Below the pieces are notes generated by a model. That model was not told the origin of the DNA. It did not search any database and saw nothing but the letters and a program-made list of their open reading frames with translations. Below, piece after piece: positions 4,883-56,318 of a stretch of DNA of 64,000 nt. Both the position numbers and the translations under genes were made by a program. Positions within the stretch are counted from its first letter, which is position 1; every line of letters begins with the position of its first letter. The DNA comes from Chitinophagaceae bacterium (GTDB lineage Bacteria; Bacteroidota; Bacteroidia; Chitinophagales; Chitinophagaceae): NCBI GenBank assembly GCA_019638615.1, contig JAHBTL010000009.1, positions 62,001 through 126,000 of the forward strand, given 5' to 3'.

Positions 4883-4953
4883 TTACAAAATCAGCCCCTG
4901 TAGAAACAGGAGCTGATACCAAAACTAACTGCTTATGAAAAACTTATTGATTG
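4883..4953 (-). ncRNA. Putative small RNA, copy 1 of a duplicated element
   Basis: On the minus strand a TATCTTTG promoter box (4966-4959) is followed by about 70 nt and ends in a hairpin (4893-4914: AGCTCCTGT-TTCT-ACAGGGGCT) with a U-rich tail. The RNA contains CATAAGCAGTTAGTTTTGG, which recurs identically in a second element at 56.1 kb with the same layout and a different but still pairing terminator. A stable rho-independent end plus conserved core argues for a non-coding RNA. No open frame spans it. An attenuator for the GNAT gene is the alternative. Confidence 0.55.
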
Positions 4954-4958
4954 AGCAA

Positions 4959-5005
4959 CAAAGATAACATAACATACACCCTTACCATTTACTATTTTGG
5001 TAAAT
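4959..5005 (-). promoter_or_regulatory. Promoter and 19-bp palindromic operator of small RNA copy 1
   Basis: The -7 element TATCTTTG (4966-4959) matches the Bacteroidota TAnnTTTG consensus. ATTTACCAAAATAGTAAAT, read on the minus strand, lies at 5005-4987, exactly 20 bp upstream of the -7 box, covering the -33 region. The same palindrome occurs at the same spacing in copy 2. Its form (TACTATTTTGGTA core) resembles HxlR/YodB-type boxes, which is only a suggestion. Confidence 0.55.
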
Positions 5006-47915: not shown

Positions 47916-50891
47916 TTAGAATCTTACCTGTAAGCCCACGGTAATGGTTTTGGGTGATGGATAAGCGCCGAGGTCTATGCCTGCATCGGTATCGCTGTTT
48001 GCTGCGGTAGACGTAGCTTCCGGATCAAATCCTTTGTACCTGGTAAGCGTTGCGATGTTTTGAGCGCTCACATATATTTTTGCTGACGCCAGCTTCAATA
48101 TATCCTTACTGATCTGGTAAGAAAGACTCACATTTTTTAAACGTACATAGCTGCCATCCTGTAAAAACTGCGTTGATTCCACCCAGCTTTTATTGGTGCT
48201 ACCCGGGTTAGCCCAGGTAGATGATGTGTTGGAAGGCGTCCAGTAATTAGCCGCATCGGCAAGGTTAATGAACTTTACATCACTGGTGGGTATGGCTGTG
48301 GCCGCGTATGTTGCATTGAATATTTTGTTGCCGTGACTGCCCTGTACAAAAATATTCAGCTCGAAGTTTTTATAGGTAAAATTGTTATTCAGGCCCCATT
48401 GTATTTTTGGCGTGGCCGATGCGGTGATCACCCTGTCTTCAAAGCCAACAGAGCCATTGCCGTCCACATCCCTGTACATAGCATCGCCCGCTTTGTAAAT
48501 TCCTTTGTCTGCCTGATAAACGCCTTCCCATGGAATAAGGTAAAAAGCGCCCAGCGGCTGACCTACTTTCACCACCTGTATACTGTTAGTGATGAGGCCT
48601 GCGCCTATCCATGACCTTTCAAGCATTGAATCTTCACCCAGATTTATTACTTTATTTTGATTGAAGGAAAAGGATGCCATCACGTTCCAGTTAAAGCTTT
48701 TGCCGGCAACAGGATTAGCGTCAATCATCAGTTCCCATCCCCTGTTGTTTACCTTGCCTATATTTTTCAGGTAAGATCCGCCGCCATCATAATTAGCGAT
48801 CCTCGTAAACAGCAGCAGGTCGCTGGTATTTTTGTTGTAGTAATCTGCGCTGATGTTAAGCCGATTATTTAAAAAGCCGAAATCAAGCCCAACATTCAAT
48901 TGCTTTGACGTTTCCCATTTTACATCGGGCGTAGCCGGGTTACCCAGTGTATATGCAGGGCTAAAGGTAGTGGTTCCATAGGAATAAGTGGTGGCGGCAA
49001 GCAGGCCCAGCGTGCTGTAAGGACCAACCGCCTGGTTACCTGTAATACCCCATCCGGCCCTCAGCTTAAGATTTGAAAAAATACCCAGTTCTTCAATGAA
49101 TTGCTCGTTGGATAATTTCCAGCCTGCGCTGAAGGATGGAAAATTACTCCATTTGTTATCGCCCTGGAATTTAGACGAACCATCACGCCGTACGGTGGCG
49201 GTAAGCAGGTACTTATCGTTGTAGTTATAAGCAATGCGCCCCATGTAAGACAATAAGGCCCAATTGGAATACCCGGATGAAATAGCTTGCGCAGTGTTCA
49301 AACCTAAATTGTAATACCCGTTTGATAATGATGCCAACCCCGAACCGGAAGCGCCGAAGCTGGAATAATTACTGGATGTTGATTCCATTAAAGCAGTTGC
49401 GGTAAGATCGTGGTTGCCGAATGCTTTATGGAAAGTGAGGATATTGCTATTCTGAAAAGTATAGCTTTCGGATGAACTCTGTCCTGAAGCATTATTGCCG
49501 GGGCTTATCCATTCATTGTTCAAAAATGCATATTTCGATATATTCATATCAAGCCCTGCATTAATGTTCAATGTTAACCAGTCGGTAATATTATACTTTA
49601 ATTTACCATTAAAAATGCCTACGTTAGAAAAATTGTTTCCCACTCTTTCTTTAATGATCATATACGGGTTCGACCAGATAGGTGAAATGCCGAAACGGTT
49701 GTATTCTCCGGGTGAATCGTAGACCTCTTCCGTAGGCGCCCATGTAAGCGCACTGGTAACGGGGTTGCCTTTCGACCCTATGTCGCCGTTATTGTGAGAG
49801 TTAATGCGGGCAGCATAAACATTAATGCCAAAGCTTAAACGTTTGGTAAGCTTTAGATCAATATTTGATCTTACACCAAATCTTTTCTGGTTGCTGTTAG
49901 CAAGAAGACCTTCCTGGTTTATATAGAAGCCGGATACATAGTATTTTGCATTTTCTGTACCCCCGTTTACCGACAGTTGATGACTTTGCGTAACTGAATT
50001 GGCAAAAATAAGATCCTGCCAGTTTGTAGTCTTCCCTGCATAGGAACCGGGGTTCGGAAATACATCAGCGCCGGCGGTAAGATTGGCCGTTTCAGCGTAA
50101 GTAACCGCATCCATCAGGTCGTATGTTTTCATGGGCTTATTAAAGCTCATAAAACCATTGTATTCAATTTTAGCCTCACCGGTAGCACCGCTTTTGGTGG
50201 TAATGAGCACTACACCGTTGGCTCCGCGTGACCCATACACGGCGGTAGCGGAAGCATCCTTCAGTATTTCCATGGAAGCAATGTCGTTCACATTAATATC
50301 TGCCAAACCGGTACTGCTAAGCGCAACCCCATCAACCACATACAAAGGATCGTTGCTGGCATTTACGGAATTAGCGCCGCGGATACGGATCTTCACCTCT
50401 CCGCCGGGCGCGCCTGAGTTATTGGTCACAGATACACCGGCAACCCGTCCCTGCAAAGCAGAAGATGCGTTTAAAACGGGTTGATCTTTATACGCTTTGG
50501 AAGAAAGCGTTGCAATAGAGCCGGTAAGGTCTTTTCGTTTTTGGGTACCATAGCCGATTACAACAATATCATCCAGCTGCCCCTCTTTATTTTTTAGCTG
50601 AACAGACAGAGGAGAGCTACCTGATAATGCCGCTTCCTGCGTTTCCATACCCGTAAATGAAAACACCAGCACCTTAGCTGTTGGGGGTACTTCTATAACA
50701 AATGAGCCATCATTTATGGTGAGGGCAGCGATACTTGTTCCTTTTACTGTAATGGTTACACCTTCTAATGGTGTTTGATCGGGGCCGGTAACCTTTCCGG
50801 TAATTTTTCTTACCTGGGAATAACTAAACGCGGTAATTAAGATTCCCAAAAACAGAAGAAATGGTTTTTTTTCAAATATGAGCATAAGCAA
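47916..50891 (-). CDS. SusC/RagA TonB-dependent receptor
   Basis: Outer-membrane transporter of 991 residues. Signal peptide ends AFSYSQ (about residue 26); no STN domain, consistent with HTCS rather than sigma/FecR control. Carboxypeptidase-D-like domain (ITGKVTGPDQTPLEGVTITVKG), plug signature LDDIVVIGYGTQKRKDLTGSI, PLYVVDGVALSSTG and TAVYGSRGANGVVLITTK, full barrel ending KTITVGLQVRF. It lies 263 bp downstream of the HTCS gene, and a 22-bp-spaced direct repeat in that gap is the likely HTCS operator. Confidence 0.95.
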   Translation of the reverse strand: MLMLIFEKKPFLLFLGILITAFSYSQVRKITGKVTGPDQTPLEGVTITVKGTSIAALTINDGSFVIEVPPTAKVLVFSFTGMETQEAALSGSSPLSVQLKNKEGQLDDIVVIGYGTQKRKDLTGSIATLSSKAYKDQPVLNASSALQGRVAGVSVTNNSGAPGGEVKIRIRGANSVNASNDPLYVVDGVALSSTGLADINVNDIASMEILKDASATAVYGSRGANGVVLITTKSGATGEAKIEYNGFMSFNKPMKTYDLMDAVTYAETANLTAGADVFPNPGSYAGKTTNWQDLIFANSVTQSHQLSVNGGTENAKYYVSGFYINQEGLLANSNQKRFGVRSNIDLKLTKRLSFGINVYAARINSHNNGDIGSKGNPVTSALTWAPTEEVYDSPGEYNRFGISPIWSNPYMIIKERVGNNFSNVGIFNGKLKYNITDWLTLNINAGLDMNISKYAFLNNEWISPGNNASGQSSSESYTFQNSNILTFHKAFGNHDLTATALMESTSSNYSSFGASGSGLASLSNGYYNLGLNTAQAISSGYSNWALLSYMGRIAYNYNDKYLLTATVRRDGSSKFQGDNKWSNFPSFSAGWKLSNEQFIEELGIFSNLKLRAGWGITGNQAVGPYSTLGLLAATTYSYGTTTFSPAYTLGNPATPDVKWETSKQLNVGLDFGFLNNRLNISADYYNKNTSDLLLFTRIANYDGGGSYLKNIGKVNNRGWELMIDANPVAGKSFNWNVMASFSFNQNKVINLGEDSMLERSWIGAGLITNSIQVVKVGQPLGAFYLIPWEGVYQADKGIYKAGDAMYRDVDGNGSVGFEDRVITASATPKIQWGLNNNFTYKNFELNIFVQGSHGNKIFNATYAATAIPTSDVKFINLADAANYWTPSNTSSTWANPGSTNKSWVESTQFLQDGSYVRLKNVSLSYQISKDILKLASAKIYVSAQNIATLTRYKGFDPEATSTAANSDTDAGIDLGAYPSPKTITVGLQVRF

Positions 50892-50933
50892 TAAGTTTTA
50901 GATATGTAATTTACTTATGCAAAATACCTGCCA

Positions 50934-56087: not shown

Positions 56088-56134
56088 ATTTACCAAAATA
56101 GTAAATGCTACGGTATGGTATCATGCTATCTTTG
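56088..56134 (+). promoter_or_regulatory. Promoter and 19-bp palindromic operator of small RNA copy 2
   Basis: ATTTACCAAAATAGTAAAT at 56088-56106 is identical to the palindrome at 4987-5005 and is followed, again after exactly 20 bp, by the -7 box TATCTTTG (56127-56134). The sequence between palindrome and box is not conserved, while both elements and the spacing are. Confidence 0.55.
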
Positions 56135-56139
56135 TTTCC

Positions 56140-56208
56140 CGATCAGTAATTTTTTTCATAAGCAGTTAGTTTTGGATAGTCCTCACCAGTCATGGTAAGG
56201 GCTTTTGC
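56140..56208 (+). ncRNA. Putative small RNA, copy 2
   Basis: Starts about 6 nt after the TATCTTTG box and contains CATAAGCAGTTAGTTTTGG, identical to copy 1 at 4.9 kb. It ends in a hairpin (56181-56200, CCTCACCA-GTCA-TGGTAAGG, extended by a G-U and a G-C pair) followed by GCTTTTG. The hairpin arms differ wholly from copy 1 yet still pair. The next gene on this strand begins over 1 kb away, so a leader role is unlikely here; a free small RNA fits better. Confidence 0.55.
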
Positions 56209-56318
56209 TCAACCTGTTATTGCTTTTAAAAGCCATGCTCAACCAGGTCAAGCACACATTCAAATCCAAAAACAATAAGTGCCATCTTTTTAATAACGTA
56301 TCGCTTAGAGCGGTTTCA

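Follow-up and report, generated by a model that had tools for sequence, protein, structure and literature searches.

In enterobacteria, MicA and RybB are envelope-stress sRNAs directed against porins. Each is a short transcript that depends on a stress sigma factor and turns a fixed seed on outer-membrane protein mRNAs, and the elements described here are likened to them by that description, across a difference of phylum and of sigma class. Within the Bacteroidota, a SusC-type target has been shown experimentally for the sRNAs FopS and GibS of Bacteroides, and the FopS structure is said to have been deposited in Rfam (PMC11697453). Rfp18 of Flavobacterium is likewise a conserved Bacteroidota sRNA with predicted mRNA targets; it is set apart by its description as aimed at metalloprotease mRNAs via a stem-loop (PMC9723704).

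We analyzed a window of 64,000 nucleotides from a Chitinophagaceae bacterium (assembly GCA_019638615.1, contig JAHBTL010000009.1) that contains two copies of a short element with a fixed core. Several traits of this element match the FopS/GibS system (PMC11697453). FopS and GibS (the latter Rfam RF04182) are multicopy paralogs, and seven exact cores occur in the genome studied here. In both systems, a 5' seed starting near TTTTTCAT is followed by an intrinsic terminator, and the hairpin that follows the seed is supported here by covariation in 57 of 72 aligned members. Primary-sigma promoters are common to both, being found here at the palindrome-bearing copies, and the resemblance extends to one 3'-UTR-derived member and to presence in phage. 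The seed of FopS and GibS is aimed at the start regions of SusC mRNAs, to which the seed here is complementary, and FopS and GibS are bound by the RRM-1 protein RbpB, to which four RRM_1 matches in the present genome may be compared. The systems differ in that many copies here carry sigma54-like motifs instead.

Layout of the two window copies

Copy 1 spans 4883-5005 on the minus strand and copy 2 spans 56088-56209 on the plus strand. The preliminary description had claimed that two loci on opposite strands share one order of features, and we located palindrome, box, core, and hairpin in both. Each copy begins with a 19-bp palindrome, followed by a gap, the box TATCTTTG, a short leader, the core, and the hairpin. 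In copy 1 (all minus strand), the palindrome ATTTACCAAAATAGTAAAT, an exact match and a putative regulator site, lies at 4987..5005, and the -7 box TATCTTTG at 4959..4966. This box is of the Bacteroidota primary-sigma type, for which the consensus is TAnnTTTG at -12 to -5 (PMC9723704). A transcript of ~71 nt is predicted at 4884..4954, its start placed from the box and its end from the hairpin. The core CATAAGCAGTTAGTTTTGG, a putative seed recovered by pattern searches of the window, genomes, and viral contigs, occupies 4919..4937, and a terminator-like hairpin, supported by covariation and fold, occupies 4890..4917 (arms 4907-4917 and 4890-4900).

In copy 2 (all plus strand), the palindrome (56088..56106) is again exact, the box TATCTTTG lies at 56127..56134, the predicted transcript, also ~71 nt, covers 56139..56209, and the pattern search places the core at 56157..56175. 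Its hairpin (56178..56203; arms 56178-56188 and 56193-56203) is atypical by model score and fold, with a weak T-run. By these coordinates, the unconserved gap between palindrome and box, described earlier as 20 bp, measures 20 nt in both copies. The identical blocks, TATTTACCAAAATAGTAAATG and TTTTT plus core (24 nt), are as first described except that they prove slightly longer. With up to three mismatches, the core has three matches in the window (two exact) against 0.04 by chance, and the palindrome has two, both exact, against 0.14.

A family in Chitinophagaceae

The two window copies had been taken for a duplicated element; they are two of seven exact cores in the 7.18-Mb genome, and belong to a large family. 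Across 98 genomes, the core occurs with at most one mismatch at 101 places in 44 genomes, against three for the reversed pattern; by hand count, 80 of these places are exact and 21 carry one change. The matches concentrate in the same family (43 of 59 genomes, own genome included), as against one of 39 other genomes of the order, and a search of related genomes, which the preliminary description had proposed, finds the element present. A covariance model scores copy 1 at 74.8 bits and copy 2 at 38.5 bits and adds a few degenerate matches in the own genome, one of them in tandem with another copy. In one same-family genome (G015), it finds seven matches, four of them at 65 bits or more. When this model was run class-wide on 295 genomes, all matches of at least 65 bits were confined to the same family. 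Eleven genomes of other families gave 27-31 bits, all of which we take as noise; in the five inspected by eye, no hairpin follows the core-like stretch.

Beyond these genome sets, named genomes carry the exact core on at least 117 stretches, contigs of Terrimonas ferruginea and Niabella drilacis among them, and it occurs on 25 viral-contig stretches, 23 of them distinct. Among the core-bearing matches listed, titles that name a family or genus mostly give Chitinophagaceae or one of its genera; many say merely Bacteroidetes, Chitinophagales, or Sphingobacteriales, and a few carry odd labels (MAGs called Williamsia and Sphingobacterium). A search of named phages and plasmids with a 60-nt consensus gave no match. 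Rfam 15 returned no match at gathering thresholds over the whole window; at permissive thresholds, copy 1 drew five matches and a single one of ten loci drew two, none of them anywhere near its gathering score. Among the matches listed in a mainly open-access literature search, we found no Chitinophagaceae sRNA or sigma54-driven Bacteroidota sRNA of such kind. The earlier statement that no described family has this core thus agrees with Rfam 15, with the qualification that the kind of RNA is known from FopS and GibS. Judged from sequence, the elements very probably constitute a real sRNA family that lies outside the Rfam copy searched.

Hairpin covariation and predicted fold

To build the alignment, 177 core places were reduced to 117 by removing similar ones, 72 of these were aligned, and 57 were kept; the 15 dropped, window copy 2 among them, had hairpins that looked offset or irregular. 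The core is invariant in both the 72- and the 57-sequence alignment as a consequence of how the loci were picked, and the fairer measure of its conservation is the 80 exact places among 101. The strongly conserved stretch, TTTTCT plus CATAAGCAGTTAGTTTTGG, lies ahead of the terminator-like hairpin. In the 57 kept members (56 distinct; the 15 irregular ones of 72 left out), 99.8% of hairpin cells are paired, with 88 double changes against 20.9 in shuffles (0/500 shuffles reach this), and all eight hairpin pairs show double changes. The full 72-sequence alignment shows compensation in nine of 16 predicted pairs.

The earlier observation that the hairpin arms differ yet still pair is thus upheld at the family level, as is, from covariation, the likely nature of the element as a short RNA whose core is fixed and whose terminator hairpin shows compensation. 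The arms pair in both window copies, with one mismatch and a weak T-run in copy 2, whose hairpin is the weaker of the two. The hairpin is kept in both predicted folds, with fold z scores of -4.26 for copy 1 and -2.06 for copy 2. Among the four loci folded, the core is unpaired in the centroid fold of copy 1 and one further locus (L002), and partly paired in copy 2 and in L007.

Palindrome and other upstream motifs

We counted promoter motifs in 131 host and 23 viral upstream sequences after removal of near-duplicates. A sigma54-like motif, TGGCA-N6-TTG, occurs in 49 of the 131 host upstreams against 0.175 in shuffles, and in none of the 23 viral ones; 48 of these 49 motifs begin 45-73 nt before the core. 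An ECF-like motif, AAC-N15-17-CGTC, is present in seven of 131 host upstreams (0.9 in shuffles, at most 3), and the palindrome in five. The three classes never co-occur, and 70 of the 131 host upstreams have none of them. In Flavobacterium psychrophilum, sigma54 promoters drive genes for protein quality control and envelope stress, and the CGT box is the mark of ECF-type promoters (PMC9723704).

In the own genome, the palindrome with 0-2 mismatches is found at four of the seven copies (exactly at three, with one change at the fourth) and solely beside cores. Allowing three mismatches raises the count to 11, against 21 for the reversed control, and we take the seven matches at three mismatches as noise. 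Across 12 genomes of the genus, at most one mismatch gives seven palindrome matches against 11 for the reversed control, so the count is uninformative by itself and placement alone carries weight: six of the seven adjoin cores, and the seventh (G005, one mismatch) does not. The exact palindromes of two genus genomes (G008 and G002) lie within ~60 nt of a core, and a named Chitinophagaceae contig (L167) has an exact palindrome upstream of its core. We also considered whether the palindrome serves more widely as an operator, such as that of an iron regulator, an idea that arose from a siderophore gene adjoining the third palindrome copy (L007), and set this aside for the own genome since its sites at 0-2 mismatches all lie beside cores.

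The palindrome is centered at about -42 from the predicted start in the window copies, a position compatible with activation and repression alike. One repressor for both copies had been proposed; the confinement of the palindrome to core sites in the own genome (0-2 mismatches) backs this in part, while its presence at four of seven copies and a position equally suited to an activator weaken the claim. The neighbors of L007 hint at a nutrient signal for this putative regulator.

Two further sequences recur just upstream of the core in host copies: AGTCAATTTTCT in 52 of 149 (and in none of 23 viral copies) and AAGCAGTC in 27 of 149. Together they look like an imperfect repeat of the core. Such core-like repeats, the strong conservation of the core, and the four RRM_1 matches in the own genome would all suit a sponge or decoy whose core binds and titrates an RNA-binding protein, for instance an RRM-1 protein. 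We regard this explanation as improbable; it does not predict the complementarity to SusC messages described below.

Gene neighborhood in hosts and viral contigs

Copy 1 lies between a DUF5107/TPR gene and a GNAT gene, with GH123 and LacI-type genes nearby. Copy 2 adjoins a hybrid two-component regulator and a cupin gene, and a SusC gene is 5.3 kb away. The third palindrome copy, L007 (region L233, on the same contig at C87:126001-146000), is flanked by siderophore-interacting-protein and esterase genes, with AraC-type and TonB-receptor genes at 4-8 kb. ORFs and their starts were called mechanically in these neighborhood counts and in the target tests.

Copy 1 is upstream of its GNAT gene on the same strand, and in 42 of 149 host copies the ORF downstream likewise shares the strand of the element, as it would for a leader or attenuator of the following gene. 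In 105 of the 149, however, copy 2 and L007 among them, the following ORF runs on the opposite strand (none was found for the remaining two), and the family is therefore not a set of leaders. The view that the element is not an attenuator consequently holds for the family; copy 1, lying 5' of a same-strand GNAT gene, keeps the feature that first raised the matter, and we consider a leader function very improbable.

Upstream genes raise a different question. A same-strand ORF precedes 105 of the 142 host copies that have an upstream ORF, by mechanical calls, and 12 of 23 viral copies have their core starting 7-13 nt past the stop codon of such an ORF. The genes upstream of viral copies include those for two portal proteins (with a head/protease gene downstream) and for a tail spike/fiber-like protein; many have no PHROG match. 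This placement would suit a 3'-end module, that is, an intrinsic terminator preceded by a site for protein binding or processing, which would end or protect mRNAs and exert no regulation in trans. We think this rather unlikely: the sigma54-like motifs 45-73 nt before the core (48 of 131) are too near to serve the upstream gene, the 19-24 conserved nucleotides would presumably be needless for a terminator, and complementarity to SusC mRNAs would be unexpected.

Core complementarity to SusC messages

The third core match in the window, at 50883..50901 (minus strand), was considered as a further copy and rejected; it faces the start region of a SusC gene in antisense and is instead a putative target site, CTAAAACTTATTGCTTATG, by core match and duplex energy. 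The gene, at 47916..50891 on the minus strand, encodes a SusC/RagA-type TonB-dependent transporter according to Pfam (Plug, TonB_dep_Rec_b-barrel, CarbopepD_reg_2) and a TIGR04056 match (G000:C87:109919-112810), and is a putative target. As DNA, site and core differ by three mismatches; as RNA, these become one mismatch and two G-U pairs, with a predicted duplex energy of -19.9 kcal/mol.

We computed the duplex energy of a 24-nt seed against gene starts and ranked SusC genes against other ORFs, with dinucleotide shuffles and shuffles keeping TTTTTCATA as control seeds; numbers of controls are given below in that order. The own-genome set comprised 868 ORFs from 1.26 of 7.18 Mb, 23 of them SusC-like. 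Here, the SusC class reached an AUC of 0.797, against 0.485 for dinucleotide shuffles and 0.465 with TTTTTCATA kept (reached by 0/80 and 0/80 controls). In G015 (311 ORFs, 34 SusC), the AUC was 0.629 (0/100 and 1/100), and in G029 (294 ORFs, 22 SusC) 0.670 (0/100 and 0/100). For G055, assessed by mean energy alone on 15 SusC genes, the value was -14.2 against -11.7 and -12.1 (0/100 and 1/100).

Pooling four genomes gave 90 SusC genes, namely the best 30 of 56 matches from the own genome, 30 of 55 from G015, 15 of 53 from G029, and 15 of 54 from G055, a set that overlaps largely with the genes of the single-genome tests. In it, 48 of 90 genes pair at -14 kcal/mol or lower, against 20-21 in controls. 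Pairing of this strength falls on the start codon in 16 of 90, against 1.9 (dinucleotide) and 4.4 (TTTTTCATA kept), reached by 0/200 of each. Start regions such as CTAAAACGATTGCTATATGAAA mirror the core. The SusC genes are related and hence not independent in these tests. In those with a long N-terminus, most of the pairing occurs 40-80 nt into the coding region, and a conserved peptide there, KTLLxMKLT, could account for it.

In genomes other than the own one, the target effect is modest. Of 100 controls in each set, 6 and 13 equaled the mean SusC energy of G015, and 5 and 12 that of G029; the count of two G015 SusC genes at -17 or lower was equaled by 22 and 26 of 100. In the own genome, 20 ORF starts pair at -18 or lower, a number within the ordinary range (12 and 17 of 80 controls attain it), and the majority are not SusC-like. 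Some of these 20 seem, from their sequence, to be an ECF sigma factor and FecR-type anti-sigma proteins. That most of the strongest duplexes are not SusC-like would be expected of a base-pairing sRNA whose main targets are other than SusC. Such a reading seems distinctly unlikely to us, given that the SusC class, the sole class tested, beats shuffled seeds in all three genomes with a background set. A search for mRNAs complementary to the core had been suggested at the outset, and in it SusC-type start regions stand out against shuffled seeds. As far as predicted duplexes can tell, complementarity of the core to SusC/TonB-receptor mRNAs exceeds that of shuffled seeds in four genomes and often falls on the start codon.

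Proposed role

We infer that the elements are probably regulated sRNAs that act as a brake on the synthesis of SusC-type importers. Each would be an sRNA gene, some 70-90 nt long, from a Chitinophagaceae family of such genes. Its core would serve as a seed that pairs over or shortly after the start codon of mRNAs for SusC-type TonB-dependent transporters, and this pairing would lower their translation. Sigma54- or ECF-type factors may turn on individual copies under different conditions, and at the window copies a putative regulator at the palindrome may switch the copy on. The outcome would be that outer-membrane importer synthesis is held down.

If this is correct, control of glycan importers at the RNA level, known from gut Bacteroides, would extend to Bacteroidota of the environment and operate there through another seed, suited to local SusC start sequences. 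Its tie to alternative sigma factors would make it a possible Bacteroidota counterpart of the enterobacterial envelope-stress sRNAs.

Relation to FopS and GibS

We compared the FopS seed (R1/R1') with the core. Beyond TTTTTCATA, similarity is at chance level, with 912 of 5000 shuffles reaching it; 76 of 5000 full dinucleotide shuffles reach the overall similarity. The GibS covariance model gave 14.8 bits against a cut-off of 115, with no match in seven same-family genomes. Bacteroidales loci found by this model mostly read TGTTTTTCATRGTATTAGATTTAAGG before the hairpin, and the Bacteroidales seed shows no fit to the SusC genes analyzed here, of which three of 90 pair with it at -14 or lower. 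With TTTTTCATA as all that the two seeds share, neither homology to FopS nor membership in its family was established. The elements appear to work like FopS in layout and target type.

Viral and tandem copies

In some phages, this RNA would form the 3' end of a gene's transcript. We tentatively suggest, as a possibility well short of an even chance, that Chitinophagaceae phages took up the host anti-transporter sRNA as the 3' end of virion-gene transcripts (e.g., between portal and capsid genes), and that its release by late transcription would silence the synthesis of TonB-dependent surface receptors. If so, superinfection may be limited or nutrient uptake of the infected cell reprogrammed. 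The family supplies ready targets and controls and raises the question of why phages carry the element.

In two viral contigs (L046 and L052), the element has a portal gene on one side and a head/protease gene on the other; in a third (L044), it lies just 5' of a head/protease gene, and the upstream ORF has no PHROG match. The three share a recurrent niche in the phage structural-gene cluster.

Tandem arrangements were also seen. One locus (L165) has two cores 164 nt apart that have the core in common and differ in hairpin and upstream sequence, and the own genome holds tandem copies at C76:168-226 and C76:334-392, the second of which is degenerate.
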